In this document: piece after piece, positions 2,483 to 61,315 of the stretch
Position numbering within the stretch: position 1 is the first letter of the stretch
How the letters are laid out: the number at the start of each line of letters is the position of its first letter
Made by a program: the position numbers and the translations under genes
The notes under the pieces: model-generated
Told to the model about the DNA's origin: nothing
Seen by the model: the letters and a program-made list of their open reading frames with translations, nothing else
Database searches by the model: none
Assembly: GCA_033064195.1 (NCBI GenBank)
Contig: JARBJD010000045.1
Coordinates: 285,083 to 349,082 of the forward strand
Origin: Blattamonas nauphoetae
Lineage: Eukaryota > Preaxostyla > Oxymonadida
Reading direction: 5' to 3'
DNA length: 64,000 nucleotides

Positions 2483-2500
2483 CACTCGTTATGGGTCAGA
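2483..2500 (-). promoter_or_regulatory. Family A upstream element, copy 1
   Basis: Reads TCTGACCCATAACGAGTG on the minus strand, 22 nt before the position of the lost ATG. Confidence 0.7.
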
Positions 2501-5123: not shown

Positions 5124-6197
5124 CTATTCCTGTTCCGGAACGTTCATGCCTAGAAAGTTGTTCAATTCGATCGATTTGTCAACAATACCACCTCCGATGT
5201 CCCCGTTCTTGTCATTTAGAAGCGTTTCCTCCATCTCATCTTCGATGCCCTCCTTTCTCAACATTCAATGGATTGTTTTCCACATCTTTCGCTCATCTCC
5301 TTTTGTTTTGTTCCATTCCTGCTGGGCATCGATCATTTCCCACAGAAAATAATAGATTGAGTAATCATTTTCGAAGACTGTGAGAAAATTTGGGATCGTG
5401 AAAACGACTGGCATATCAATGATGAAATCCATTGTTGGTTGAGAACACGGACATATTCGGAGGAGGTGGACAATGAGATCCCTAATATAAAAGGATATCT
5501 CACCGTCGACGATCGAAAAGCGGTTGACGCACAAATGGCCAATATACTGCTCTGAATGTTTCATCACTTGCTTCAAAATAGTATCATGAACAACTTGATG
5601 TTCATTCTGATCTGTAATTTTGAGTTGCTCGAGTCCATCCGGAGTTGCGAGCTTGAGAGAAGACCTGGCGATATTCATGAGATGGAGGTGGATATCGACT
5701 GCTTTTGCAAAAGAGAGAGACTGTGGATTGAGATTGATGATGAGTTGAGTGATCAGATCAGCTTGGACGAGGGCAAGGAGGACTTCTGGTGAAATGGTGG
5801 CGAGCAGTCTTTGGAGCATCTCCATTGCTGCAGTTTTGATGACATGACTGGCAGCAGAAACGAACACCACAATGGACTGTACGAAGTCTGGAGAAGAGTT
5901 ACCAGAACTCGATTGAAGGCTGTTGAGAAAAGCACCTGTTAATGATTGAGTTCGTGGATGCACTGATCTGAGAAGTTTCACTGCTTTTGTTTCCAGTGAG
6001 TCATCAAGTTCAGGCTGTAACTTCAATGTCGCAATAAGAGATTGAAAGACAACGGCTCTTTCGTGTTCAGAGCCTAACTTTTGTTCGCTCCAATTCAGGA
6101 AAGCATCACAATCTAGAGAACATGAAAAGCAGTGTGAAGAGATACCAAGGCAAGGAGAATCAGGGGATGGGTTAATCGTCAAGTCAATTGCTGTCAT
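5124..6197 (-). pseudogene. Family A copy 2, one nonsense codon
   Basis: From the conserved ATG (6197-6195) to the conserved TAG (5126-5124) is exactly 1074 nt, the family's usual 357 codons, and the frame is open apart from a TGA at 5267-5265. Other copies have CGA there (His-Arg-Met-Leu-Arg-Met becomes His-stop), a single C-to-T change. The product would lose about 47 C-terminal residues, including the LRMEG block. The N-terminus is of the ISSHCFSCSLD type shared with copies 5 and 8. An in-frame extension above 6197 exists only from a non-ATG codon and would run through the upstream element at 6220-6237, so 6197 is preferred. Confidence 0.85.
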
Positions 6198-6219: not shown

Positions 6220-6237
6220 CGCTCGTTATGGATCAGA
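6220..6237 (-). promoter_or_regulatory. Family A upstream element, copy 2
   Basis: Variant TCTGATCCATAACGAGCG on the minus strand, 22 nt before the ATG. Confidence 0.7.
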
Positions 6238-8490: not shown

Positions 8491-8765
8491 CTCTTCTTCG
8501 TTCTTGCTGCACATCTCAACTTCACGAGTATGTCCACATTGACGCATTTGATTCCACAAACGAGCAGTGCGAGAGTGAGAATGGCGGCGGAGGAGAACGA
8601 GAGTGTGGCGATCATCGGGCGAGACTGGCGAGAGAGAATCCCAATCGTTCCCGCAAACGAAGCCATGATGTGATGCCAGAGCCCACAAAGATCACACACA
8701 AACAGTGTTTGATGTCCCAAAGAAGCCAGAAACAGGTCAAAACGATCGCTGGTTCTTGTCTGTTT

Positions 8766-9839
8766 CTATTCCTGTTTTGAAAGGTTCATGCCCAGCATGT
8801 TGTTCAAATCAATCAAATATGCAACAACATCACCTCCGATATCTCCCTTCAGGTCGCTTAGTAGTGTTTCCTCAATCACATCTTCGAAGCCCTCTATTCT
8901 CAAAATTCGAGTCACTGCCTTCCACATCCATTGCACTTCTTCCCTTTGATTGTTCCATTCCTGCTGAAGATCCATCATCAAATACAGAAAAGACCAGATT
9001 GAGAGATCATCTTCGAAGAAGGTGAGACAACTTGGAATCGTGAGAAAGAATGGTATATGAAGAACAAATTCGATTATCGGTTGATAATCGGAACATATTC
9101 CGAGGAGTGTGGCGAGGAGTTCCAGAAAAGACTTGGATTGGCTTCCATCGATGATCGTAAAGCGGTTCATGCATAAATGACAGATATACTTCTCCGAAGG
9201 AATGAGAACTTGCTTCAAGATCGTCTCACGAACAGTTTGTTGTTCATTGAGATCATAACTTATAAAATTCCTGAGACCATTCGGAGTTGCGAGCCAGACA
9301 GTCCAGTTGATGCTCCTCATGATGTAGATGTGGATATCGACTGCTTCGGTGAATGAAAGAGACAGTGGACTGAGAGTGCTGATTAGTTGAGGGAAAAGAT
9401 CAGCTTTGACGAAGGCAAGTCGGACTTTAGCTGAACATGTCCAGATTAGACTTCTGAGCATTTTCATTGCTGCTGTGGTGATTGCTCGATTGGGTGAAGA
9501 AATGAGTACTGCAATGGACTGGATGAGGTTTGTCAAAGATTCATCAGAACTCGAAGCAAAACTCCCGAGAAAAGCATCGGCTGATTCATCATTCTCCGGA
9601 GTTACATGTTTCAGAAATTTTACCGCTTTCGCTTCCAGGGAGGCATCAAGAACAGGCTGGATCTTCACTGTTGCAACGAGAGATCGAAAGATAATGGTTT
9701 TTTCGTCTTCAGATTCAAGATCTTCTTCGCCCCAATTCAGGAACGCTGAGCAATCCATTGAAAATGGAAGCCAAGGAATGGACATAGTAGAGTGCGTAGT
9801 AGATGAGGAGGTGTTGATCTTCGAATATAATCCAGTCAT
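8766..9839 (-). CDS. Family A copy 3, intact 357-residue protein of unknown function
   Basis: I do not recognise this family. What can be seen: a variable first 28 residues; DCSAFLNW (29-36); FRSLVATVK (51-59); a helical middle (about 104-165) with armadillo/HEAT character, ITTAAMKML then VRLAFVKADLFPQLI; VDIH (167-170); HLCMNR (221-226); LTIPSCLTFFE (266-276); and a charged C-terminal block LRIEGFEDVIEE (313-324) ending LNNMLGMN (345-352). No signal peptide or membrane span is evident, so a soluble scaffold-like protein is the best guess. The start is fixed by the ATG 22 nt below the upstream element at 9862-9879. The stop is the TAG shared by nearly all copies. The conserved 3' flank runs to about 8500. 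Confidence 0.85.
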   Translation of the reverse strand: MTGLYSKINTSSSTTHSTMSIPWLPFSMDCSAFLNWGEEDLESEDEKTIIFRSLVATVKIQPVLDASLEAKAVKFLKHVTPENDESADAFLGSFASSSDESLTNLIQSIAVLISSPNRAITTAAMKMLRSLIWTCSAKVRLAFVKADLFPQLISTLSPLSLSFTEAVDIHIYIMRSINWTVWLATPNGLRNFISYDLNEQQTVRETILKQVLIPSEKYICHLCMNRFTIIDGSQSKSFLELLATLLGICSDYQPIIEFVLHIPFFLTIPSCLTFFEDDLSIWSFLYLMMDLQQEWNNQREEVQWMWKAVTRILRIEGFEDVIEETLLSDLKGDIGGDVVAYLIDLNNMLGMNLSKQE

Positions 9840-9861: not shown

Positions 9862-9879
9862 CACTCGTTATGGGTTAGA
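9862..9879 (-). promoter_or_regulatory. Family A upstream element, copy 3
   Basis: TCTAACCCATAACGAGTG on the minus strand, 22 nt before the ATG. Confidence 0.7.
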
Positions 9880-13704: not shown

Positions 13705-13722
13705 TCTGACCCATAACGAGTG
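13705..13722 (+). promoter_or_regulatory. Family A upstream element, copy 4
   Basis: Exact TCTGACCCATAACGAGTG, 23 nt before the ATG. Confidence 0.72.
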
Positions 13723-13745
13723 TGATTTGACCAGTCTCAAAACGA

Positions 13746-14822
13746 ATGACCGAGATTGTCAAGAAACCAAACACTTCCTCATGTAAAGCACACTCTGACT
13801 TGTCCTCCCGTCCATTTCTATTTTCGACGGATTGCTCACCGTTCCTGGATTGGAGGTGGTACAAGCGGCTTGAAACTGCAATTGAAAAGACCGTTGTCTT
13901 TCAGTCTCTCGTTGCCACTGTGAAGTTGCAGCCTGAGCTTGATGCCTCGTTGGAGGAGAAAGCAGTGGAACTTCTGAAATCAGTGAAACCGAAGGATAAA
14001 GAAATCGCAGATGCTTTTCTCGGCAGCCTTGGGCAAACCACTGATCATTCTTCAACAGACTTCGTACAGTCCATGGTGGTACTCATTTCATCGCCCAGTC
14101 AAGCAATCACCACAGCAGCAATGGAGATGCTGAATTTTCTGTTCTTGTTCTGTTCCCCTAAAGACCGACTTGCCCTCGTCCAAGCTGATCTGGTCCCTCA
14201 ACTCATCACCACTCTCAACCCACAGTCTCTTTTCTTTGCAGAAGCACTCGATATTCACATCCACCTCATGCGTATCTTCAAGTCTTCTCTCTGGCTCGCA
14301 GCTCCGGATGGACTCGAGCAACTCGAAATTCAAGATCACTATGAACAACAAGCTGTTCGTGAGACGGTTTTAACGCAAGTCCTGTCACCTTCGGAGAAGT
14401 ATATTTGGCATTTGTGCGTGAACAGATTTTCGATCATCGATAGAAACCAATCCACTACTTTTCTAATGCTACTCACCGGACTCCTCGAAATATCTCCATA
14501 TTATCAGCCCACAATGGATTTTGTCCTTCATATGCCTGTCGTTCTCACAATCCCGAGCTGTCTCACATTTTTCAAAGATGATCACTCAAGCTTCTCTTTT
14601 CTGACTTCGATGAACCACGTTCAGTATGTTTGGAACAAAACAAAAGGAGAAGAGGGACAGATTTTGAAAACAATCCATCAAATGCTGAAAATGGAGGGCT
14701 TCGAAGAAGTGATGGAGGCAAAGCTGCAAAACGACCGAAAGGAACGCTATGGAAGAATGATTGTTCGCAGATCGATTAACTGGAACAACTTGCAGGGCAC
14801 GAACCTTCCAGAACAGGAATAG
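13746..14822 (+). CDS. Family A copy 4, intact (358 residues)
   Basis: The frame is open from the ATG below the upstream element to a TAG. The N-terminus carries SDLSSRPFLFSTDCSPFLDW, so the usual FLNW is FLDW here. The helical middle has FVQSMVVLISSPSQ, ITTAAMEML and DRLALVQADLVPQLI, and the end block is KMEGFEEVMEAKL with NWNNLQGTNLP. This is a well-preserved member, one codon longer than the typical copy. Its 3' flank (14823-15080) holds the conserved hairpin region near 14884-14896 and leads into the 5' flank of copy 5. Confidence 0.85.
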   Translation: MTEIVKKPNTSSCKAHSDLSSRPFLFSTDCSPFLDWRWYKRLETAIEKTVVFQSLVATVKLQPELDASLEEKAVELLKSVKPKDKEIADAFLGSLGQTTDHSSTDFVQSMVVLISSPSQAITTAAMEMLNFLFLFCSPKDRLALVQADLVPQLITTLNPQSLFFAEALDIHIHLMRIFKSSLWLAAPDGLEQLEIQDHYEQQAVRETVLTQVLSPSEKYIWHLCVNRFSIIDRNQSTTFLMLLTGLLEISPYYQPTMDFVLHMPVVLTIPSCLTFFKDDHSSFSFLTSMNHVQYVWNKTKGEEGQILKTIHQMLKMEGFEEVMEAKLQNDRKERYGRMIVRRSINWNNLQGTNLPEQE

Positions 14823-15224
14823 AAACAGACAAGAATCAGCGTCTCTTTCGACCTGTTTCTGACCTCTATTGGACAATAGACACTGTTTGTGTGTGATCGC
14901 TGTCGACTCTGGCATCACCTCATTGTTTGGTTTGCCGAACGACAAAGATTCTCTCTCGTCAGTTTCGCTCGATGGTCGCCACACTCTCCTTCTCTTTCGC
15001 CACTCTGACCCTACTCGCAAGTGAACGGCCGTGCTTGCATGCGTTGTCACGATTGGTGGGGGACATGACAATTCTGTTCTTCGTCGAAATGATACCAACC
15101 ATCGATTTGGTCGTTGACTGTCTTTCTCCTCATTCATGGATGATCTCAATCTTCTTTGGTTGATTTTTTTTGTTCATTTGCGATGGGCCATTCATCTCAC
15201 TCTCTTAATTGCACATGATTGATT

Positions 15225-15242
15225 TCTGATCCATAACGAGCG
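15225..15242 (+). promoter_or_regulatory. Family A upstream element, copy 5
   Basis: TCTGATCCATAACGAGCG, 22 nt before the ATG, the variant shared with copy 2. Confidence 0.7.
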
Positions 15243-19638: not shown

Positions 19639-19656
19639 TCTGACCCATAACGAGTG
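19639..19656 (+). promoter_or_regulatory. Family A upstream element, copy 6
   Basis: Exact TCTGACCCATAACGAGTG, 22 nt before the ATG. Confidence 0.72.
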
Positions 19657-23690: not shown

Positions 23691-23708
23691 TCTGACCCAT
23701 AAGCTGTG
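23691..23708 (+). promoter_or_regulatory. Family A upstream element, copy 7 (diverged)
   Basis: TCTGACCCATAAGCTGTG, 22 nt before the ATG. The 3' half differs from consensus. Confidence 0.6.
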
Positions 23709-23730: not shown

Positions 23731-24807
23731 ATGAACGCAATCACGAAGAAAACTGAAACCATTTCAAGTTCAGATCGCTCTGAATCGTCGTCCAATGATT
23801 TGACATTATCACTGGATTGCACACCGTTCCTGAATTTGGATGAAGAAGAAGGACTTGACTCTGTGGAAGAATGGGCAATTGTCTTTCGATCTCTTGTTGC
23901 CACTTTGAAGATCCAGCCTGTGCTTGACGACTCCTTGGAGGCTAAGGCAGTTGATATTCTAAAATTTGTAAGTCCAGAGACTGAAGAAGAAGCAGAAGAA
24001 TATCTCGACGGCCTTGGAGAAACTTCTGAAGAATATTCGACAAACTTCGTACAGTGCATTGTGGTGCTCGTTTCCTCACCAAGTCAGATCATTACAGAAG
24101 CATCAATGAGGATGATTGATAATCTGATCGAGTTTTGTTCAGCAGAAGTTCGACTTGCCCTCGTCCAAGCTGAGCTGCTTCCTCAACTCATCACCACTCT
24201 GAATCCACAGTCTCATCCTTTGCAGAAACCGTTGATATCCTCACTCATTTTTCTGTCATGCGTCGCCGCATCGTTGAGGCTTTCATCTCCGGATTGCCTA
24301 GAAGAACTCGAAATTGAAGATGTTGATGAACAACAAGCTGTTCACAAGACAGTTTTGACGAAAGTTCTGGCCCCTTCGGAGCAGTATATCTGCCGTTTGT
24401 GCATGAACCGACATTCGGTCATCGATGGAGACCTCTCTGATGACTTTATGGAACTCCTCGCCCTTCTCCTCCGAATATGTCCATATTATCAACCTACAAT
24501 GGAATTTGTTCTTCATATGCCAGTCTTTTTCACGATCCCAAGTTGTCTTACATTCTTCGAAGATGAAAAGACAATCTGGCGTTTTCTGTATCAAATGACC
24601 ATAAATCAGCAGAAATGGAACGAACAAAGCGGAGAAGTGCAACAGATGGAGAAGGAAGTGCATCGAATGTTGAGAATGGAGGGCATCGAAGATGTGATTG
24701 AAGAAAAGCTGCGGAACGATAAAAACGGATTCTATGGGAGAGAGCTTGTTGCCAACTCGATCATATGGAACAACAGGCAGGGCATGAACCTTTCATATCG
24801 TTTGTAG
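23731..24807 (+). CDS. Family A copy 7, open, with a compensated frameshift
   Basis: A 358-residue frame with the most divergent N-terminus of the intact copies (DCTPFLNLDEEEGLDSVEEW; FLNW is FLNL). Between about 24210 and 24275 the protein reads SHPLQKPLISSLIFLSCVAA, whereas the DNA aligned to other copies reads SFAETVDI in the next frame. One base was lost near 24210 and one gained before SSPDCLEELEIED, so about twenty residues of the helical region were replaced without truncation. The rest is normal: FVQCIVVLVSSPSQ, HLP-type LCMNRHSVIDG, LRMEGIEDVIEEKL. Acidic residues are enriched around 75-95. Confidence 0.8.
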   Translation: MNAITKKTETISSSDRSESSSNDLTLSLDCTPFLNLDEEEGLDSVEEWAIVFRSLVATLKIQPVLDDSLEAKAVDILKFVSPETEEEAEEYLDGLGETSEEYSTNFVQCIVVLVSSPSQIITEASMRMIDNLIEFCSAEVRLALVQAELLPQLITTLNPQSHPLQKPLISSLIFLSCVAASLRLSSPDCLEELEIEDVDEQQAVHKTVLTKVLAPSEQYICRLCMNRHSVIDGDLSDDFMELLALLLRICPYYQPTMEFVLHMPVFFTIPSCLTFFEDEKTIWRFLYQMTINQQKWNEQSGEVQQMEKEVHRMLRMEGIEDVIEEKLRNDKNGFYGRELVANSIIWNNRQGMNLSYRL

Positions 24808-25215
24808 AAATAGACAAGAACCAGCGAACATTTCAAACTGTTTCTGACTCCTTTTGGACCACACACACTGTTTGTGTGATCTTTGTTGGCTCTGTCATCA
24901 CTTCATAGTTTCGTTTGCCTGAACGATTGGGATTCTCTCTCGCCAGTCTCGCTCGATAGTCGCCACACTTTACTTCGCCATCGCTGCTCACGCACTGCTC
25001 CTTTATGAAAGACAATGCGTCGATCACTGGATGGATGGTGACGATTGGTGGGGGACAGGACATTTCTGTTATTTGTCGAAATGATCCCAACCTTCTTTTT
25101 GGTCGTTAACAGTCTTTCTCTTCATTCATGGATGATCTCAATCTTCTTTGGCTGATTTTTTTGTTCATTTGCGATGGGTTGTTCATCTCACTCTCTTTAT
25201 TGCACAAGATTGTTT

Positions 25216-25233
25216 TCTGGTCCATAACGAGCG
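25216..25233 (+). promoter_or_regulatory. Family A upstream element, copy 8
   Basis: TCTGGTCCATAACGAGCG, 22 nt before the ATG. Confidence 0.68.
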
Positions 25234-25255: not shown

Positions 25256-26329
25256 ATGACAGGAATTGACGTGAAGATTAACACCTACACTGATTCTCCT
25301 TACTGTGGTATCTCTTCACACTGCTTTTCATGTTCTCTAGATTGTGATGCTTTCCTGAATTGGAGCGAAGAAAAGTTTAGCTCTGAACACGAATGTGCAG
25401 TTGTCTTTCGGTCTCTTGTTGCGACAGTGAAGTTCCAGCCTGAATTAAATGTCTCTCTTGAAGAGAAAGCCGTGAAATTTCTTGAATCTATGATACCAAT
25501 GATTCGACAAGGAACCGATCCTTTTCTCCGAAGCCTTGGGCGGACAGCCGATGAGTCTTCGACCAACTTCGTGGAATCCGTTGTAGTGCTCCTTTCCTCA
25601 GCCAATCAGGCAATCACCACAGCAGCAATGAAGATGCTCGGAACTCTGATCAGGACATGTTCAGCTGAAGTCCTTCTTGCCCTCGTTCAAGCGGATCTGA
25701 TATCTCGACTCATCAATACTCTCAATCCACAGTCTCTTGCTTTTGCGGAGGCAGTCGATATTCACATCTCACTCATGAGGATCATCACCGAATCTGTCTG
25801 GCTCGCAATTCCGTATGGTCTTGCACAACTCGGAATTGAAGATGAGAATGAACAACAAGCAGTTTACGAGACGGTTTTTCTGCAAGTAATCACCCCTTCG
25901 GAGACATATCTTTGCCATTTGTGCGTCAACCGGTATTCGATCGTCAATGGCGAACTATTCGTGAATTTTCTGATACTCCTCACCAGACTCCTCCAGATAT
26001 GTCCACACAATCAACCAGCAATGAATTTTATTCTTCACGGGCCAGTCTTCCTCACGATCCCAAGTAGTCTGACATTCTTCGAAGATGATCGCTCAATCTC
26101 GGATTTTCTGTATCAAATGATCCGTATCCAGCAAGAATGGAGCAAAATAAGGGAAGAATCTCGACAGATGTGGAAGGCAGTGGATCGAATGTTGAGAATG
26201 GAGGGCATCGAAGATGTGATTGAAGAAAAGCTGCAAACCGACAAAAATGAATACTTTGGACGACGGATTGTTTCCGACTCGATAGAATGGAACAATTTGC
26301 AGGGCATGAACCTTCCAAAACATCGATAG
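25256..26329 (+). CDS. Family A copy 8, intact (357 residues)
   Basis: Starts MTGIDVKINTYTDSPYCGIS with the ISSHCFSCSLDCDAFLNW block characteristic of copies 2 and 5. The frame is open upstream to 25148, but only from a TTG and through the upstream element, so the ATG at 25256 is taken, which gives exactly 1074 nt. The middle has FVESVVVLLSSANQ and EVLLALVQADLISRLI, and the end is LRMEGIEDVIEEKL with IEWNNLQGMNLP. Copy 8 is the only intact representative of its N-terminal subtype in this window. Confidence 0.86.
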   Translation: MTGIDVKINTYTDSPYCGISSHCFSCSLDCDAFLNWSEEKFSSEHECAVVFRSLVATVKFQPELNVSLEEKAVKFLESMIPMIRQGTDPFLRSLGRTADESSTNFVESVVVLLSSANQAITTAAMKMLGTLIRTCSAEVLLALVQADLISRLINTLNPQSLAFAEAVDIHISLMRIITESVWLAIPYGLAQLGIEDENEQQAVYETVFLQVITPSETYLCHLCVNRYSIVNGELFVNFLILLTRLLQICPHNQPAMNFILHGPVFLTIPSSLTFFEDDRSISDFLYQMIRIQQEWSKIREESRQMWKAVDRMLRMEGIEDVIEEKLQTDKNEYFGRRIVSDSIEWNNLQGMNLPKHR

Positions 26330-26941: not shown

Positions 26942-26960
26942 ACTGACCCAAAACGAAGTG
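26942..26960 (+). promoter_or_regulatory. Family A upstream element, copy 9 (diverged)
   Basis: ACTGACCCAAAACGAAGTG, 21 nt before the ATG. TA-to-AA change in the core. Confidence 0.55.
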
Positions 26961-26981: not shown

Positions 26982-28055
26982 ATGGGCCAAATAATCAATA
27001 AACCTAACAACTTCTCAGGCTCACCTCGATCTTATGTTTCCTCCCCTCAATTGTCACTCTCAAAGGATTGTTCTCGTTTTCTGAATTGGGATGAAAGGCG
27101 ACGTGAATCCGATCGCGAAAGAGCCGTTCTCTTTCGATCTCTCGTTGCCACTGTGAAGTTACAACCTGCACTCGATGACTCTCTGGAAGCGAAAGCCGTG
27201 AAATTCCTGGAATCAGTGGTTCCGTCTTCACGAGAATCAGCTGATGCTTTTCTCAGAAGATTTGCATCCACGTCTCGTGGTTCTCTAGCAAGCTTCACAC
27301 AATCCATTGTAGGATTAATTTCATCGACCAGTCAGGTCATCAAAACAACAACGATGAGGTTGCTCAACAATCTGTTCTTCACTTGTACCCCTACAATCCG
27401 ACTTGCCCTCGTCACAGCTGATCTGATCTCTCTTCTCATCCCATCTCTCAATCCACAATCTCTTTGCTTTGCAGAAACAGCAGATATCCACACCTGTCTC
27501 ATTCAAATCATCGCCCAATCTCTCTTGCTCGCAACTCCGTTTGGTCTCAAACATCTCGGATTTGAAGATGATAATAAACACCAAGCTGTTCATGAGACGG
27601 TTTTGCAGCAAGTTCTGATCCCTTCGGAGATGTTTATTGGGCATTTGTGCATGAACCGATTTTCGAACGTCGATGGAAACCAATCCTGGAATTTTATGGA
27701 ACTCCTGGCCCAACTGCTCCGAATATCTCCATCTTACCAACCGACAATGGAACTCGTTCTTCATATGCCAGTCATTCTCACGATCCCCAGTTGTCTCACA
27801 TTCTACGAAAATGATCGCTCAATCTCGTATTTTCTGAGTTTATTGTTCTATGCCTGCAAAGAATGGAACGAAAGAATGGGAACAAATCGACAGATGTGGA
27901 AAACAGTTTCTCGAATGATGAGAATAGAGGGCATCGAAGATGTGATTGAGGAAAAGCTGCGAAACGACAAAAACGAAGACATCGGAAGATGGATTGTTGC
28001 ATATTCGATAGAATGGAGCAACCTGCAGGGTATGAACATTCCAGAACAGGACTAG
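26982..28055 (+). CDS. Family A copy 9, intact (357 residues)
   Basis: Starts MGQIINKPNNFSGSPRSYVS, an N-terminus shared in type with copy 10 (MGQIINTTNN). Motifs: DCSRFLNWDERR, FRSLVATVKLQPALDDSLEA, IRLALVTADLISLLI, HLCMNRFSNVDG, MRIEGIEDVIEEKL, EWSNLQGMNIP. ITTAAMKML of other copies is IKTTTMRLL here. The conserved 3' flank breaks off about 30 bp after the stop and is replaced by unrelated sequence, so the duplicated unit is shorter on this side. Confidence 0.85.
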   Translation: MGQIINKPNNFSGSPRSYVSSPQLSLSKDCSRFLNWDERRRESDRERAVLFRSLVATVKLQPALDDSLEAKAVKFLESVVPSSRESADAFLRRFASTSRGSLASFTQSIVGLISSTSQVIKTTTMRLLNNLFFTCTPTIRLALVTADLISLLIPSLNPQSLCFAETADIHTCLIQIIAQSLLLATPFGLKHLGFEDDNKHQAVHETVLQQVLIPSEMFIGHLCMNRFSNVDGNQSWNFMELLAQLLRISPSYQPTMELVLHMPVILTIPSCLTFYENDRSISYFLSLLFYACKEWNERMGTNRQMWKTVSRMMRIEGIEDVIEEKLRNDKNEDIGRWIVAYSIEWSNLQGMNIPEQD

Positions 28056-35327: not shown

Positions 35328-35477
35328 ATTTCTTTGAGATTCTGTTGAAAAACGACCAATCCACCAACGATAAATTCACGGATCGACCTCTTTATTTTGG
35401 ACGAGTATTTCTTCTAAAGTTGATCCTGTCACACTGACTTGACCCATACCGACACTTATTCGATTGATTCGGACGGA
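35328..35477. promoter_or_regulatory. Divergent intergenic region, acidic gene and family A copy 10
   Basis: 150 bp separate the two start codons. The family A element sits on the plus-strand side at 35438-35454. No equivalent is found on the minus-strand side, which indicates that the element belongs to the family and not to promoters in general. Confidence 0.55.
35438..35454 (+). promoter_or_regulatory. Family A upstream element, copy 10 (diverged)
   Basis: CTTGACCCATACCGACA, 23 nt before the ATG. The 5' GACCCATA core is kept. Confidence 0.58.
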
Positions 35478-36551
35478 ATGGGCCAGATAATCAATACAAC
35501 AAACAACTCCCCAAATACAGAGCGCTCTCATTTGTCCTCCCACCAACCTCATTTTTCCATGGATTGTACTCCATTCCTGAATTGGGATGAAAACGAAATT
35601 GAATCTGAAAACGAACAAGCAGTTGTCTTTCGATCCCTCGTTATCACTATGAAGTTACAGCCTTCACTTGATGTGTCTCTGGAAGAGAAAGCTGTGAAAC
35701 TTCTGGAATCTGTGGATCCACCGAATAGAGAATCAACAGATGCTTTTCTCCTCAGCCTTGGGCGAACCACTGCTGATTCTTCATCAGACTTCGTACAGTG
35801 CATTGGGGTGCTCATTTCTTCAGCCAGTCAGGTTATCACCACAGCAGCAATGAAGATGCTCGGAAATCTGATCATGTGGTGTTCAGCGAAAGTCCGACTT
35901 ACCCTCGTTAGCGCTGATCTGATCCCTCAACTCATCACCACTCTCAATCCACTGTCTCTTTCCTTCACCGAAGCAGTCGATATCCACACCTGTCTCATGA
36001 GAATCATCATGTTCTGTCTCAGGCTCGCAACTCCGTTTGGTCTTCCACAACTCGCATGTGCAGGTCTCGATGAACAACTCGCTGTTCCCGAGACGATTTT
36101 TCAACAAGTTCTCATTCCTTCAGAGAAGTATATCTACCATTTGTGCGTCAACCGCTTCTCGATCATCGACGGTGACCAATTTGGGTCTTTTCTGTCACTT
36201 TTCGCTCACCTCCTCGAAATATGTCCATATCATCAACCCACAATGTATTTTGTTCTTCGTATGCCAGTCGTTTTCACAATCCCGAGCTGTCTCGCAAGCT
36301 TCGAAAATGAAATGCCAATCATTTATTTTTTGCACGACATGAACAACGCCCAGCTGGAATGGAACAAAAGAAGGGGAGTTGTGCGACAGATGTGGAAGAA
36401 AGTGCTTAGGATGTTGAGAATGGAGGGCTTCGAAAATACGATTGAGGAAAAGTTGCAAAGCGACAAAAATGGAGACAGCGGGGGATGGATTGTTGACAGA
36501 TCGATTGGATGGAGCAACCAACAGGGCATGAACGTTCCGGAACAGGAATAG
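35478..36551 (+). CDS. Family A copy 10, intact (357 residues)
   Basis: The ATG at 35478 (MGQIINTTNNSPNTERSHLS) gives exactly 1074 nt. The frame is open further upstream only from a TTG. Blocks: DCTPFLNWDENEIESENEQA, FRSLVITMKLQPSLDVSLEE, ITTAAMKMLGNLI, VRLTLVSADLIPQLITTLNP, HLCVNRFSIIDG, LRMEGFENTIEEKL, WSNQQGMNVP. Its central part (TLVSADLIPQL, PSEKYIYHLCVNRFSIIDG) is closest to copy 15, while the N-terminus is closest to copy 9. Confidence 0.86.
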   Translation: MGQIINTTNNSPNTERSHLSSHQPHFSMDCTPFLNWDENEIESENEQAVVFRSLVITMKLQPSLDVSLEEKAVKLLESVDPPNRESTDAFLLSLGRTTADSSSDFVQCIGVLISSASQVITTAAMKMLGNLIMWCSAKVRLTLVSADLIPQLITTLNPLSLSFTEAVDIHTCLMRIIMFCLRLATPFGLPQLACAGLDEQLAVPETIFQQVLIPSEKYIYHLCVNRFSIIDGDQFGSFLSLFAHLLEICPYHQPTMYFVLRMPVVFTIPSCLASFENEMPIIYFLHDMNNAQLEWNKRRGVVRQMWKKVLRMLRMEGFENTIEEKLQSDKNGDSGGWIVDRSIGWSNQQGMNVPEQE

Positions 36552-36735
36552 AATCAGTCCAGAATCAGCGAACGCTTCGAACTGTTTCTGACTTCATTTG
36601 GACAACAAACACTGTATGTGTGTGATCTTTGTCTGCTCCGGCATCACCTCATGGTTTGATTTGCGGGAACGATTGGGATTCTCTCTCGCCAGTCTCGCTC
36701 GATGGTCACCACACGCTCCTTCTTCGTAATCTCTC
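36552..36735 (+). other. Conserved 3' flank of copy 10
   Basis: Family-wide post-stop sequence with the ACAAACACTGTATGTGTGTG hairpin region near 36606, then the GGCATCACCTCATGG block. It runs into a family C relic and the second 38-bp array. Confidence 0.6.
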
Positions 36736-43839: not shown

Positions 43840-44119
43840 CAGTCACACTGGTTCCAAGTTGTGGATTGAACGAATCTACGAGAATGGAAGAAAGATCCGT
43901 GTGAAACCTCTCCCTTCGACACACCCATCTCTTCTTCTGCATTCATCCTTCGTCTTGTTCTTGCATTTGTCGTTCATTGACCATCTGTGACAATCTTTCT
44001 TCTCCCTCGTTCCCTGGCCATGTCTTCATTTCTAGATCGTCGCAATCTTCATTGATTGCCTCTTGCTATTATTTCTTTATGACATCTCTTTCATCTGACG
44101 CTGATTGTCTTGGTTTTAA

Positions 44120-44137
44120 TCTGACCCATAACGAGTG
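44120..44137 (+). promoter_or_regulatory. Family A upstream element, copy 11
   Basis: Exact TCTGACCCATAACGAGTG, 22 nt before the ATG. Confidence 0.72.
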
Positions 44138-44159
44138 CTCTCACTCAGAATCAATCCGA

Positions 44160-46365
44160 ATGATAACGATTATCAAGAAGGCAGATGCCTCCTCAAGTGC
44201 AACGTGCGCTCATATGTCCTCCCCTCAGTCACCTTTTTCAAGGGATTGCTCACCGTTTCTGAATTGGAATGAGAATCAACGTGACTCTATTCAGGAAGAG
44301 GCCGTTGTCTTTCGTTCTCTCGTTGCGACGGTGAAGTTAAAGCCTGCTCTTAATGACTCTCTGGAGGCGAAAGCAGTGAAACTTCTCGAATATGTGTCTA
44401 ATAGTGCTACATCATAGTCCTGCAGATAACCCGAAGTTGGAGGACAACCCGGAAGTTGCCACTGACTGATTGATGTTTAAATTCTTCATCTCATTGATGA
44501 TAATTGTTGCTCTATTTTCTGTACTAGTCGAAGATCTATTGAAGAAAGGGTCTGATTCAAATACCAATCTCTCCACTACAACTCATGTTGACTATCGATG
44601 AAGATCAAGCTTGCTGTGACTTCTCAAAGTTGGTATTTTCCCTGTGAAAGTCTTCAAAAGCCATCCTCTCATGGAGGACATCACACTCGCTGGCACAGAT
44701 TTGGCCTTCTCGGTATGGACAGACGGGATCCGGACTCTCCTCTTGACCACCTTTCATGGTTCATCTCACATCATCACTATCCGTTGAAGTCCAACTCGTT
44801 TATTTCTCACCTTCATGTCGCGCTCGGATGGAAATCTCGACGGTTGGAGTTTAGTCAAGTAGGCCAACAACCCTGTTCTTATCCATTCTCTTGATTCACT
44901 CTGACTCTTATCTATCTTCTTTTCATCCCCATTCCAGGCACAGACGACAAAAGGGGCAGTACATGGCCGTTGGGACACACATGGTCGAATCACTTTGATG
45001 GAGTTGCCAAGATCGTAGCATATTCCAGCTAATAACCTCAAACGCATCAGCAAAGCAAATGGAAGAGATATCGCAGAGAGAAGGATACTGTGAAAGGATG
45101 CGATGCCATTGCAGAATGTGGATCAACGCAGGATGATGAACTCTTCTGGCAAGTATTTGGCACGATCAATGCTCAGGTAGGCCCGTCTCCAATGAAAACC
45201 CGTGTGAAGAAGATTTCTCACAATCGGAATAAAAGCTGTGATTGAAGGAGATTGAGGACGCACAATGAAAGGCTATTCATTTGCATGTCACATTTCTTTC
45301 ATCGTATTTTGGATTGATTCGGCTGTATTTCACCAAACGGATGTAAATCAAGATTTGATTAATCATTCAATGAAACCGATCAAACCTCAATTGAAAATCT
45401 GAAGAGACCACTCTTACTAGAAAACAAGTGTATGCAGTTTTTATCCTAAGTATCTCTTGTCTTATCCCATTTCGGTTCATTTTCTTCTTTCTTTCGGGTT
45501 AAGGACCAACTTCGGGTTGTATTGGGGACTATCATCATTTGCAGATGCTTTTCTCAGGAACCTTGCATCGTCCTCTGACAATTCTCCGAATGACTTCGTA
45601 CAGTCCATTGTGGTTCTCATTTCCTCACCCAATCTGTTAATCACAACTGCAACAATGGAGATGCTCGGAAACCTGATTACGCGGTGTTCCCCTAAATTCC
45701 AACTTGCCTTCGTCAAAGCTGATCTGATCCCTCGACTCATCCCATCTCTCAATCCCCTGTCTTTTTCATTCACCGAAACAGTCGATATTCACACGTATCT
45801 CATGACAATCATCACCTGTTCTCTCTGGCTCGTAACTCCGAGTGGTCGCGCCAGTCTCGAAATACTCGGAAGTAGCGATGGGAATAAACAACAAGCTGTT
45901 CATGAGACGGTTCTGACGAAAGTTCTTTTCCCTTCGGAGAAGTATATCTGCCATTTGTGCATGAACCGATTTTCGATCGTCGACGGAGACCAATCCTATT
46001 CTTTTCTGGCACTCCTCGCCCAGCTCCTCGAAATATGTCCATACCATCAACGGATATTGGATATTGTGCTTCATATACCTGTCTTTCTCACGATAGCGAG
46101 CTGTCACACATTCTTCGAATATGACGACTCAATCTCTTGGTTTCTGTCTTCCATGGTCCTTCTCCTGTGGGAATGGAATGAGCAAAGGGGAAAAGTGCGA
46201 AAGAAGGGGAAGAAAGTGCTTCGAATGTTGAGAATGGAGGGTATCGAAGATGTGATGGAGGAAAACCAGCAAAATGACAAAAGCACATCCTCTGGAAGAG
46301 AGATTGTTACCCGCTCGATTAAATGGAACAACTTTCTGGACATGAACGTACCAAATCTCTGGTAG
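44160..46365 (+). pseudogene. Family A copy 11, split by a 1.1-kb insertion
   Basis: The 5' part (44160-44415) starts MITIIKKADASSSATCAHMS, reaches DCSPFLNWNENQRDSIQEEA and LEYVSNSATS, then stops inside the inserted element. The 3' part (45536-46365) resumes ADAFLRNLASSSDNSPNDFV and runs to the family end (VLRMLRMEGIEDVMEENQQN, NFLDMNVP). Removing the element and one ATCAT restores an uninterrupted 361-codon frame, so the insertion is the only lesion. The 3' flank with its hairpin region follows. Confidence 0.88.
44416..45530 (+). mobile_element. 1115-bp TIR element, unclassified
   Basis: Ends are AGTCC...GGACT, flanked by ATCAT on both sides (44411-44415 and 45531-45535). The end regions are imperfect inverted repeats built around AACCCGAAGTTGG, present at 44429-44441 and as its complement at 45507-45519, with a further AACCCG...AAG inside each. 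Because of ambiguous bases the duplication could also be read as CATC with termini ATAGTCC. Interior frames are short; EDITLAGTDLAFSVWTDGIR with stops (about 44670-44730) looks like decayed coding sequence, but no transposase motif is clear. Probably non-autonomous. Confidence 0.78.
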
Positions 46366-48034: not shown

Positions 48035-48052
48035 TCCAACCCATAACGAGTG
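48035..48052 (+). promoter_or_regulatory. Family A upstream element, copy 12
   Basis: TCCAACCCATAACGAGTG, 22 nt before the ATG. Confidence 0.68.
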
Positions 48053-48074
48053 TTTAACATACGGGTCTGTCAGA

Positions 48075-49148
48075 ATGACCGAGATTGACACGAAAATTGA
48101 TGCGTCCACAGATTATCAATGCCCTGGTATCTCTTCTCACTACTTTTCATGTTCTGCAGACTATTCAGCTTTCCTGAATTGGGATTACAAACGATTTGAT
48201 TCAGAACACGAGAGAACCGTTGTTTTTCAGTCTCTCGTTGCCACTGTAAAGATGCAGGCTGCACTTGATGACTCTCTGGAAGTGAAAGCGGAGATACTTC
48301 TGAAATCTGTGGTTCCGTCGACTCATGAAGCAGCAGATGGTTTTCTCAGCAACTTTGGACAGACCACTGATGAATCGTTGACAAACTTCGTACCGTGCAT
48401 TGTGGTGCTCATTTCGTCACCCAGTAAAGCAATTTCCGCTGCAGCAATGAAGATACTCCACTCTCTCATTTGGACCCGTTCGGAGAATGTCCGACTTGAC
48501 CTCTTCAAAGCTGATCTACTCCCTCAACTCATCAACACTCTCAATCCACTGTCACTTTCATTCTCAGAAGCAGTCGATATCCACACCTGTCTCATGACAA
48601 GCGTCCGCGACACAATCTGGCTCGCAACTCCCGAGAGTCTCGCCCGTCTCGAAATTGAAGATGAGAATGAACAACAAGCTGTTCACAAGACAGTTTATCA
48701 GCAAGTTCTGGCCCCTTCGGAGATGTATCTATGGCATTTGTGCGTGAATAGGAATTCGCTCACCAATGCTGACCTATCAGTGAATTTTCTGATAATCCTC
48801 GGGCTTATCCTCCGCATCTCTCCTTTTCATCAACCGACAATGGATTTTATTCTTCATATGCCAATCATTCTCACGATTCCAAGTTGTCTCACCTTCTTCG
48901 AGCGTGATCACTCGATAATGATTTTTGTGCATCACATGAACAATGCCCAGCGGGAATGGAACGATCAAAGCGGAAAAGTGCAAAAGATGGGGATGATAAT
49001 ACTTCGAATGCTGAGAATGGAGGGCATGGAAGATGTGATTGAGGAAAGACTGCGAAACGACCGAAACGGACACTCTGGCAGTTATACTGTTTCTTATTCG
49101 AAAGAATGGAGCAACTCTCTGGGCATGAATCTTCCAAAACAGGAATAG
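48075..49148 (+). CDS. Family A copy 12, intact (357 residues)
   Basis: Starts MTEIDTKIDASTDYQCPGIS, then ISSHYFSCSADYSAFLNWDY KRFDSE, almost the same first 45 residues as copy 15. The middle diverges from copy 15 (MQAALDDSLEVKAEILLKSV; SENVRLDLFKADLLPQLI), but the two agree again at TPESLARLEIEDENEQ and LILGLILRISPFHQPTMD, a patchwork suggesting gene conversion. The C-terminal block is LRMEGMEDVIEERL. HLCVNR is kept but followed by NSLTNADLS instead of FSIVDG. The 5' flank back to about 47770 is shared with copy 14. Confidence 0.86.
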   Translation: MTEIDTKIDASTDYQCPGISSHYFSCSADYSAFLNWDYKRFDSEHERTVVFQSLVATVKMQAALDDSLEVKAEILLKSVVPSTHEAADGFLSNFGQTTDESLTNFVPCIVVLISSPSKAISAAAMKILHSLIWTRSENVRLDLFKADLLPQLINTLNPLSLSFSEAVDIHTCLMTSVRDTIWLATPESLARLEIEDENEQQAVHKTVYQQVLAPSEMYLWHLCVNRNSLTNADLSVNFLIILGLILRISPFHQPTMDFILHMPIILTIPSCLTFFERDHSIMIFVHHMNNAQREWNDQSGKVQKMGMIILRMLRMEGMEDVIEERLRNDRNGHSGSYTVSYSKEWSNSLGMNLPKQE

Positions 49149-55958: not shown

Positions 55959-55976
55959 TCTGACCCATAACGAATG
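55959..55976 (+). promoter_or_regulatory. Family A upstream element, copy 13
   Basis: TCTGACCCATAACGAATG, 22 nt before the ATG. Confidence 0.7.
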
Positions 55977-55998: not shown

Positions 55999-57072
55999 AT
56001 GACCGAAATGAACAGGAAAACAGACACCTTCTCGAATACAGAACGCTCTGACTTGTCCTCCCGTCCCTTTCACTTTTCGACGGATTGCTCACCGTTTCTG
56101 AATTGGGATGAGAAACAACATGAATCTGTACATGAAAAAGCCATTGTCTTTCGATCTCTTGTCGCTACAGTGAAGTTCCAGCCTGCACTTGATGACGCAC
56201 TGGAAACGAAAGCAGTGAAATTTCTAGAATCTGTGACTCCAGAGAATCGAGATTCAGCAGATGCTTTTCAGAACAAGTTGACATCGAACTCTGATGATTC
56301 TTCAACAGATTTTATCCAGTCCATTGTGGTTCTTCTTTCATCCACAAGTCAGGTCCTCACAGCCTCAACAGTGAAAATGCTCTATTCTCTGATTGAATGG
56401 ATTTCGCCTACTGTCCAGTTTACCCTCGTTCAAGCTGGTCTGATCCCTCAACTCATCACCACTCTCAATCCACTGACTCTTTCTTTTACCGAAGCAGTCG
56501 ACATCCACGCTGGTCTCATGTCAACCATAACCTGATTGGTCTGGATCACAACTCCGTTTGGACTCGAATATCTCGAAATTGTCGATCATTTTAAACCACA
56601 AACTGTTCCCGAGACGGTTTTTCAACAAGTTCTCTTCCCTTCGGAGCAGTATATTTGTCATTTATGCGTAAACCGCTATTCGATCATCAACGGGAAGCAA
56701 TCCAAATATTTTCTGGACCTCCTTGCCCAAATCCTCCACATATCTCCATATCATCAACCGACAATGGATTTCGTCGATACTATGCCAGTCGTTCTCTCGA
56801 TCCCAAGTTATCTCACATTCTTCGAGGATGACAACTCAATCTGGTATTTTCTGTATACAATGAACAATACTCAGCGGAAATGGAACAACGAAAGCGGAGA
56901 AGTGCGACAGATGGGGAAGACAGTCCATCGAACGTTGAGAATGGAGGGCATCGAAGATGTGAATGAGGAGAAGCTGCGAAACGAGAAAAACACATCCTAT
57001 GGAAGAGTTATTGTTTTCTACTCGATTGAATGGAACAACCTGTTCGGCATGAACGTTCCGGAACAGGAATAG
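55999..57072 (+). pseudogene. Family A copy 13, one central nonsense codon
   Basis: 1074 nt from ATG to TAG, open except for TGA at 56533-56535, where other copies have TGT or another sense codon (ITCSLWL becomes IT-stop-LVWI). The 5' part gives 178 residues including FLNWDEKQHESVHEKAIVFR and the helical middle. The 3' part begins with an in-frame ATG-like restart only at a TTG/GTC context, so reinitiation is unlikely. The N-terminus matches copy 6. The end block reads LRMEGIEDVNEEKL. Confidence 0.85.
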
Positions 57073-57934: not shown

Positions 57935-57951
57935 TTGGACCCATAAAGACA
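57935..57951 (+). promoter_or_regulatory. Family A upstream element, copy 14 (diverged)
   Basis: TTGGACCCATAAAGACA, 23 nt before the ATG. Confidence 0.58.
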
Positions 57952-57974
57952 ATTGTTTGATTCAATCCGAAAGA

Positions 57975-59048
57975 ATGACCGAGATTGACAAGACAACAGA
58001 CACATCCTCAAACATAAGACCTTCTGATTTGTTCTCCCCACATTTGCCGTTTTCTGCAGATTGCTCTCCGTTCCTAAATTGGAAAGAAGAAGACCTTGAA
58101 TCGGAACAGGAAACAGTCCGTATCTTTCAGTCTCTCGTTGCCACTGTGAAGTTGCAGCCTGCACTTGATGTCTCTCTCGAAGCGAAAGCGGTGAATTTTC
58201 TGAAATCTTTGGATCCGAAGGTTCAAAAATCAGCCGAAGTTTTTCTCAACAGCCATGGGCGAACCACTGACGAATCATTAACCAACTTCATCCAGTCCAT
58301 TGGGGTGCTCATTTCTTCTACCAGTCAGGGTATCACCATCGCAGCAGTGAAGATACTCAGACTTCTGATCAGCCTCTGTTCGCCTAAAGTCCTACTTGCC
58401 CTCGTCAAAGCTGATCTGATCCCTCAACTCATCGCATCTCTCAATCCATTGATTCTTCCTTTTGCAGAAGCAGTTGATATCCACTTATATCTCATGAAAA
58501 GCATCAACAAATCCTCGTGGCTCGCAACTCCATATGGACTGTATGGACTCAAAATTCAAAATCAGGATGAACCACAAGCTGTTCACGAGACGATCTTGAA
58601 GCAAGTTGTGGCCCCATCAGAGAAGTATCTCTACTATTTGTGCGTGAACCGATTTTCGATCGTCGATGGTGAGCAATCTACCGAGTTAATGACTCTTATT
58701 CCTCGACTCCTCGAAATGTCTCTTTATTATCAACCGACAATGGAAATTGTTCTTCATATGCCAGTCATTCTCACGATCCCAAGTTGCCTCACATTCTTCG
58801 AGAATGAACGCTCAATCTGGTTTTTTCTGTCTTCAGTAGTCGAAGCCCAGCGGAGATGGAACATGATAAGGAGAGAATATCGACAAATGGGGAAGACAGT
58901 GCTTTGCATGTTGAGAATGGAGGGCTTCGAAGATGTGAGCGAAGAAAGGCTGCTAAACGACCAAGACGGATCGTATGCAAGATCTATTGTTACCAGATCG
59001 ATTGATTGGAGCAACCTGCATGGCATGAACCTTCTAAGGCGTGCATAG
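57975..59048 (+). CDS. Family A copy 14, intact (357 residues)
   Basis: Starts MTEIDKTTDTSSNIRPSDLF. Frame is open upstream only from a TTG at 57957. DCSPFLNWKEEDLESEQETV, FQSLVATVKLQPALDVSLEA, ITIAAVKILRLLISLCSPKV, LLALVKADLIPQLIASLNPL. Its SINKSSWLATPYGLYGLKIQ and NQDEPQAVHETI stretches make it the nearest relative of the disrupted copy 1. The end block is LRMEGFEDVSEERL, ending DWSNLHGMNLL. The usual tyrosine-rich HLCVNR is YLCVNR. Confidence 0.86.
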   Translation: MTEIDKTTDTSSNIRPSDLFSPHLPFSADCSPFLNWKEEDLESEQETVRIFQSLVATVKLQPALDVSLEAKAVNFLKSLDPKVQKSAEVFLNSHGRTTDESLTNFIQSIGVLISSTSQGITIAAVKILRLLISLCSPKVLLALVKADLIPQLIASLNPLILPFAEAVDIHLYLMKSINKSSWLATPYGLYGLKIQNQDEPQAVHETILKQVVAPSEKYLYYLCVNRFSIVDGEQSTELMTLIPRLLEMSLYYQPTMEIVLHMPVILTIPSCLTFFENERSIWFFLSSVVEAQRRWNMIRREYRQMGKTVLCMLRMEGFEDVSEERLLNDQDGSYARSIVTRSIDWSNLHGMNLLRRA

Positions 59049-60207: not shown

Positions 60208-60224
60208 TCTGACCCATAACGTGT
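60208..60224 (+). promoter_or_regulatory. Family A upstream element, copy 15
   Basis: TCTGACCCATAACGTGT, 23 nt before the conserved ATG at 60248 and only 2 nt before an extra ATG at 60227. Confidence 0.65.
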
Positions 60225-60247
60225 AAATGAACTCAGAATCACAAACA

Positions 60248-61315
60248 ATGACGGTGATTGACACGAAGATTGATGCATCCACAGATTATCAGTGCCCTGG
60301 TATCTCTTCTCACTACTTTTCATGTTCTGTAGACTGTTCAGCTTTCCTGAATTGGGATTACAAACGATTTGATTCTGAACTCAAGAGAGCTGTTGTTTTT
60401 CAGTCTCTCGTTGCCACTGTAAAGATCCACCCTGTCCTTGATGACTCTTTGGAACGTAAAGCCGTGAGATTTCTCGAACATGTGCATCCTGACAGGATTG
60501 AATCAACCGATGCTTTTCTCAACAGATTTACATCCCTCTTGGACAATTCTTGGCCAGAATTCGTACAGTCCATTGTGGTGCTCATTTCGTCACCCAGTAA
60601 AGCAATTGCCGCTGCAGCAATGAAGATCCTCGACACTCTCTTTTGGAACAGTTCAGCGAATAACCGACTTACCCTCGTTAGCGCTGATCTGATCCCTCAA
60701 CTCGTCATCAATCTCAATCCACTGTCTCTTTCATTCTCCGACGCGTTCGATATCCACACCTGTCTCATGACAAGCATCCTTCGTTCTCTCTGGCTCGCAA
60801 CTCCCGAGAGTCTCGCCCGTCTCGAAATTGAAGATGAGAATGAACAACTAGCTGTTCGTGAGACGGTTTTTCAACAAGTTCTCATTCCTTCGGAGAGGTA
60901 TACTTGCCATTTGTGCATGAACCGTTTTTCGATCATCGATGGGGAGTTATCTCGGTATTTTCTGTTAATCCTCGGGCTTATCCTCCGCATCTCTCCTTTT
61001 CATCAACCGACAATGGATGTTGTTCTTCAGATGCCAGTCGTTCTCACAAGCCCAAGTTGTCTCGCATTCTTCGAAGATGAAGTCTCAATCTGGAATTTTC
61101 TGCGTGAGATATACAATGCCCAGTGGGAATGGAACAAAAGAAAGGGAGGAAAGCGACAGATATGGAATAATGTGCATCGAATGTTGAGAATGGAGGGCAT
61201 CGAGGATGTGATTGAAGAAAAGCTGCAAAACCACAAAAACGAATACGGAAGAGCGATTGTTGAGAAATCGATCAGATGGAACAACTTTCTCGGCATGGAC
61301 CTTCCATGGCGTTGA
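60248..61315 (+). CDS. Family A copy 15, intact (355 residues)
   Basis: The conserved ATG (MTVIDTKIDASTDYQCPGIS) is at the family spacing. An additional in-frame ATG at 60227 would add seven residues (MNSESQT) and directly abuts the upstream element, so it would be used only if transcription starts within or before that element. N-terminus as in copy 12. The central part RLTLVSADLIPQL and FQQVLIPSERY resembles copy 10, and LILGLILRISPFHQPTMD again resembles copy 12. The end block is LRMEGIEDVIEEKL. It stops at TGA directly followed by the family TAG. Two codons are missing near NHKNEYGRAI. Confidence 0.85.
   Translation: MTVIDTKIDASTDYQCPGISSHYFSCSVDCSAFLNWDYKRFDSELKRAVVFQSLVATVKIHPVLDDSLERKAVRFLEHVHPDRIESTDAFLNRFTSLLDNSWPEFVQSIVVLISSPSKAIAAAAMKILDTLFWNSSANNRLTLVSADLIPQLVINLNPLSLSFSDAFDIHTCLMTSILRSLWLATPESLARLEIEDENEQLAVRETVFQQVLIPSERYTCHLCMNRFSIIDGELSRYFLLILGLILRISPFHQPTMDVVLQMPVVLTSPSCLAFFEDEVSIWNFLREIYNAQWEWNKRKGGKRQIWNNVHRMLRMEGIEDVIEEKLQNHKNEYGRAIVEKSIRWNNFLGMDLPWR

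Follow-up and report, generated by a model that had tools for sequence, protein, structure and literature searches.

What is the role of a short sequence that stands at almost the same distance ahead of the start codon in most copies of a gene family? The question is raised by a locus of Blattamonas nauphoetae in which an 18-letter element (13705..13722, plus strand, exact consensus) lies 23 nt ahead of the ATG of an ORF of 358 aa (13746..14822, plus strand), one copy of a family termed here family A. The window, i.e. the whole 64-kb stretch of DNA (64,000 nucleotides) that was analysed, contains 15 such copies, and the element TCTGACCCATAACGAGTG or a variant of it precedes all 15. Between the end of the element and the conserved ATG there are 22 nt in 13 of them and 23 nt in the copy at 13705, and in the remaining one (2483-2500) the conserved ATG is replaced by AAG. 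As will be seen, the element is real and strongly conserved, and it keeps a set distance to the start codon. As to its function, that of an initiator-like core promoter appears to us the most likely, with a moderate degree of confidence, judging from the sequence.

Three of the copies are read from the minus strand: the exact consensus is found at 2483..2500 (start codon position 2458-2460, AAG), TCTGATCCATAACGAGCG at 6220..6237 and TCTAACCCATAACGAGTG at 9862..9879, the latter two 22 nt ahead of the ATGs of ORFs 5265-6197 and 8766-9839, respectively. On the plus strand, besides the copy at 13705, the element is always 22 nt ahead of the ATG: TCTGATCCATAACGAGCG at 15225..15242 (a copy with an internal stop), the exact consensus at 19639..19656, TCTGACCCATAAGCTGTG at 23691..23708 (ORF 23731-24807), TCTGGTCCATAACGAGCG at 25216..25233 (ORF 25256-26329), ACTGACCCAAAACGAAGT at 26942..26959 (ORF 26982-28055), CTTGACCCATACCGACAC at 35438..35455 (ORF 35478-36551; the lowest matrix score of the 15), the exact consensus at 44120..44137 (ATG at 44160, short ORF 44079-44417), TCCAACCCATAACGAGTG at 48035..48052 (ORF 48075-49148), TCTGACCCATAACGAATG at 55959..55976 (ORF 55999-56535, shortened), TTGGACCCATAAAGACAA at 57935..57952 (ORF 57975-59048) and TCTGACCCATAACGTGTA at 60208..60225 (conserved ATG at 60248, with another in-frame ATG at 60227). 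A weight matrix trained without the window copies recovered all 15 elements at a threshold of at least 8 bits, and the 15 positions listed in a preliminary description of this DNA are all correct. At the same threshold the matrix gave two further sites in the window, 32222 and 11675 (both minus), neither of which is followed by an ATG at 21-23 nt; two controls gave 2 and 0 sites. A search with the 18-mer at up to 3 mismatches returned 12 matches in the window, all of them among the listed family A copies, as against 0.03 expected. The GC content of the window is 44-51% in 4-kb blocks, and Rfam and tRNA scans of the window gave no matches.

In order to obtain a sample that does not depend on the element, the genome (88,311,006 bases, 837 contigs; the window is G000:C390:285083-349082) was searched with one family A protein, and N-terminal regions were chosen by protein similarity. 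The search scored 114 matches out of 3125 first-look candidates, so family A may number more than 114 copies. The sample consists of 121 copies, i.e. 80 stretches, 29 of the 30 loci L009-L038 and 12 further window copies. The stretches were taken from about 83 protein-search rows without a locus, and two rows that were left out lie in the window. L011 is absent (same place in L003), as is the window copy at 26942 (same place in L009), and the copies at 15225 and 25216, likewise in the window, are counted as L010 and L009, respectively. A related set of 87 N-terminal regions, 75 once identical ones were removed, left out matches that start after residue 35 and those too close to the end of the locus.

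In 114 of the 121 protein-chosen copies the -120..-11 stretch contains a match to the element at 12 or more of its 18 positions, and in 107 of the 121 the element is 21-23 nt ahead of an ATG. The gaps among the 114 matches are 22 nt (92 copies), 23 nt (11), 21 nt (4), 26 nt (3), 28 nt (1) and 18 nt (1), and two matches have no ATG in range; L098 (18 nt) and L017 (26 nt) reach 12 of 18 only by a doubtful match. Farther upstream, between -160 and about -53, only one copy attains 12 of 18 with its best match. The spacing is thus tighter than the range of 21-23 nt given in the preliminary description implies, 22 nt being the rule (92/121) and 21 or 23 nt the exceptions (15/121). An upstream extension of the coding region was considered and rejected, as gaps other than 22 nt are mostly 21 or 23 nt and do not differ from it by a multiple of three. 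In 7 of the 121 copies a recognisable element is missing (fewer than 12 of 18); judged by eye, two of these (L120 and L137) seem to have decayed elements. A third, L125, has an element on the opposite strand, directly before the ATG, that seems to belong to a divergent copy, and both at L125 and at L032 (C157:282485, 282638) there appear to be divergent family A copies in a head-to-head arrangement.

The reverse approach, starting from the element, leads to the same family. The exact 15-mer GACCCATAACGAGTG occurs at 157 places in the genome and its reversed pattern at none; when an ATG was required 18-28 nt on, there were 154 matches, among which one place or more is counted twice, and again 0 for the reversed pattern. 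Each of the first 30 of the 157 places is followed downstream by a match to family A, which is weak in one case (L065, 48 bits); an ATG stands at 21-23 nt in 28 of these 30 loci, and ATT in the other two. The core GACCCATAAC is found at the right distance from an ATG 366 times in the genome, vs 22 times at a shifted distance and once for the reversed pattern. At up to 3 mismatches the 18-mer has 677 places genome-wide as opposed to 40 for the reversed control, which amounts to an excess of roughly 600 places, part of which were examined.

Tubulin genes served for comparison. In 16 stretches upstream of tubulin genes the family A element was never found 21-23 nt before the start, and the best matches anywhere in these stretches cover 9-13 of the 18 positions on the coding strand and at most 12 on the other. 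The family A element is therefore not in use at these tubulin genes. Taken with the 30 of 30 pattern-chosen loci that proved to be family A, this upholds the family specificity claimed earlier within the part examined: the element is family-restricted as far as examined. Ten of the 16 tubulins (L069, L070, L072-L079) agree in 10 or more of 14 positions with another sequence, TTAAGCGCTTCGAA, 32-42 nt before the start. The exact 14-mer occurs at four places in the genome, three of them at tubulins; at the fourth, C312:241291, there is no obvious tubulin start.

How does the element compare with its surroundings? Among the 92 gap-22 copies the mean pairwise identity is 0.79 in the element, 0.89 in its core GACCCATAAC and 0.52 in the spacer between element and ATG, chance being 0.27. 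Upstream of the element the identity is 0.39 at -60..-41 and 0.32 at -120..-61. The preliminary description staked its reading on a spacer less conserved than the element, and the alignment agrees; its statement that the spacer differs strongly between copies goes too far in so far as the spacer (52% vs 79% for the element) is not random, chance being 27%, and has a weak consensus, aTT.a.cTC.GAaTC.gacaGA. The mean identity at fourfold-degenerate sites of 32 intact family A copies (8 broken ones left out) is 0.66; it is 0.58-0.60 over codons 1-50 and 0.80 where the ORF ends. The element stands out from both sides because the upstream region, the spacer and the early fourfold sites are all less identical. 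The gradient along the ORFs, from about 0.59 to 0.80 in the 5' to 3' direction, looks as if exchange between copies were commoner toward the 3' end.

These figures bear on the simplest alternative, namely that the element was conserved through joint duplication or homogenisation alone and is the functionless 5' edge of a shared unit. The whole unit is indeed shared, as the fourfold identity of up to 0.80 at its 3' end suggests; about 150 nt past the stop are also conserved, and copies with an internal stop retain the element. However, a passive edge would not skip the spacer, and the spacer, which lies between element and ORF, is far less alike than the element; we therefore consider this alternative very improbable. 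The same contrast is seen in 20 close pairs of copies in which both flanks are at least 80% alike, where the spacer averages 0.76 and the element 0.92. In three of these 20 pairs the identity of the spacer is 0.55 or lower. A side observation concerns 48035-48074 and 60208-60247, which are alike upstream (0.89) and at the start of the ORF (0.91), yet have almost unrelated spacers (0.36). The length of the spacer differs in 42 of 453 close pairs by a rough count whose upstream gap rate is inflated, so that, roughly, spacer length is more stable than spacer sequence. Copies with an internal stop have a mean element score of 15.83 (n=18) vs 15.45 for those without (n=91); since stop-bearing copies keep the element equally well, loss of the element does not track gene decay.

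The position of the start of transcription can be approached through the ATGs. A scanning ribosome selects against ATGs that are out of frame with the true start, and it does so only inside the mRNA. We counted such ATGs in 117 gap-22 copies and took the expected numbers from column-permuted copies (1000 permutations). In the spacer none was observed vs 14.6 expected, and none of the 1000 permutations was as low; a separate run with 114 gap-22 copies gave 0 vs 13.2, and among 131 copies one with a gap of 23 nt has an out-of-frame ATG in the spacer. The element itself contains 5 (10.8 expected), four at -25 and one at -29. Upstream, there are 13 at -60..-41 (14.4 expected) and 107 at -140..-61 (83.8 expected), the bins being uneven, with an excess at -140..-121 (45 vs 22.7). 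In-frame ATGs number 8 in the spacer (5.6 expected) and are depleted at -60..-41 (2 vs 7.2). As the spacer is devoid of out-of-frame ATGs and there is no clear depletion upstream, the spacer is probably mRNA leader; from this lack across the gap-22 copies, the same would hold for the spacer at 13723..13745 (plus strand). If translation proceeds by scanning, transcription probably starts in or beside the element.

The ATG counts also have a bearing on two other views of the element. It might work in the mRNA, as a motif of the 5' leader that serves translation or stability, in which case transcription would start slightly upstream. The fixed distance to the start codon, the leader-like spacer and the shortage of in-frame ATGs at -60..-41 would be in line with such a role, but out-of-frame ATGs just upstream of the element are not depleted, and therefore little leader can lie upstream of it. 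Moreover, the folding energy of the leader (-7.48 vs -7.83 for simple shuffles, n=82) gives no sign of structure, and we think this role distinctly improbable. Alternatively, the element might be a proximal transcription factor site that remains untranscribed, the start being a few bases downstream in the spacer. The loss of out-of-frame ATGs, complete in the spacer and partial in the element, where four copies tolerate one at -25, would suit a site of this kind; in addition, TAACGA resembles the Myb site [C/T]AACG[G/T] as described in PMC4450334, and the genome encodes Myb repeats (23 matches). But the Myb consensus is missed at the last position, and in our judgement a factor site would hardly seem to need so rigid a spacing to the ATG, so that we see this as unlikely, albeit worth keeping in mind.

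We rather favour the view that the element is an initiator-like core promoter sequence belonging to one large gene family. A fixed short distance to the ATG and a leader-like sequence downstream, as for an initiator-like core promoter, are both present (107/121 copies; 0 vs 14.6 out-of-frame ATGs). CA is the dinucleotide at which initiators usually start, and it is found at positions 8-9 of the element in 80 of 82 gap-22 copies outside the window. The initiator-like or leader element envisaged in the preliminary description is in keeping with the fixed spacing, with the island-like conservation and with the absence of out-of-frame ATGs from the spacer. According to the mechanism that we propose, the transcription machinery or a family-specific factor would recognise TCTGACCCATAACGAGTG. 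The start of transcription would be set within or directly beside the element, the resulting mRNA would have a very short leader of about 22-35 nt, and the ribosome would scan this leader to the conserved ATG. The annotated 5' leaders of Monocercomonoides, a related oxymonad, average 62 bp (PMC8767320) and thus exceed the one that we propose. Several of the results given above likewise tell against our view, namely the seven copies in which no element is recognisable, the good preservation of the element in copies with an internal stop, the out-of-frame ATGs inside the element of five gap-22 copies and in the spacer of one gap-23 copy, the uneven upstream bins and the weak consensus of the spacer.

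Still another possibility is that the element, which ends in GAG with TG beyond the boundary, serves in splicing, either as the 3' splice site of an intron in the 5' leader or as an acceptor for trans-splicing. The element contains AG, introns appear to exist in this genome (fragmentary Ras matches), and 552 introns are annotated in the 5' leaders of Monocercomonoides (PMC8767320). Within 400 nt upstream of 72 copies, however, GTATG/GTAAG is less frequent in the sense (10) than in the antisense direction (23); a conserved upstream donor was not found there, GTATG/GTAAG being present in 9 of the 72 copies, and we give this possibility hardly any credence.

It is instructive to compare the putative initiator with known promoter systems. 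The upstream types of Plasmodium var genes are family-specific promoter elements that are longer and located further upstream. They resemble the present case in that one promoter type is common to a large multigene family, but here we see a single 18-mer, usually at 22 nt, in a family with a predicted fold that is weakly ARM-like. The Inr of Trichomonas vaginalis lies close to the ATG. Its consensus is T-C-A+1-Py-(T/A), it is bound by IBP39 and occurs in about 75% of genes (PMC4450334), and the likeness lies in an element at the transcription start of TATA-less genes (PMC4450334, PMC7946386). There are differences, too. Firstly, the element described here is longer and tied to one family as far as examined. 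Secondly, the Inr serves most genes, which does not hold here, given 0 of 16 tubulin stretches and 30 of 30 pattern loci that are family A. Thirdly, the best fit to the Inr consensus is CCATA, 4 of 5 positions, the T at the first base being missing. A search of the genome for PF10416, the IBP39-type binding domain, gave 0 matches, and control genomes gave none either. Some Trichomonas genes have alternative core elements, the Myb-like M3 and the initiator-like M5 (PMC4450334, PMC7946386); TAACGA fails the M3/Myb pattern [C/T]AACG[G/T] at its last base, M3 and M5 being compared by description only.

It is tempting to speculate, though we hold this only tentatively and would not count on it, that a family several hundred strong has an initiator of its own, with a dedicated factor, and could be switched as a unit. 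If so, start-proximal elements would be gene-class codes, one for family A and another (TTAAGCGCTTCGAA) for tubulins. Our literature search, partly judged by title, found no paper on an oxymonad promoter, and in a term search of the main text of two oxymonad genome papers the word promoter was absent. Since the candidate start element comes in hundreds of natural replicates, it would allow direct tests of the core promoter in a lineage that lacks mitochondria, and the 22-nt rule could aid the annotation of true start codons across a very large family.

The proteins themselves offer few clues. Pfam gave no match over a cut-off for six window proteins, three of them of family A. A structural model of family A is helical with a mean pLDDT of 70, and most of the solved structures that fit it best are armadillo domains of importin alpha, at E values of 0.01 or worse, so the model points weakly, at most, to an ARM-like fold. 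On the 3' side, coding past the stop codon was rejected: codon periodicity in the flank is unclear (0.68, 0.67, 0.65), a weak test with a similar ORF control (0.52, 0.51, 0.47), and by eye the copies also differ by frame breaks there. Finally, the near-palindrome ACAAACACTGTTTGTGTG has 13 matches in the window vs 0.04 expected. Eight of the 13, e.g. those at 14876-14893, 24861-24878, 36605-36622 and 8695-8712 (minus), are situated 54-56 nt past the stop of full-length family A ORFs and fall within the conserved 3' flank of about 150 nt; this sequence is possibly a 3' end signal with a fixed spacing of its own.
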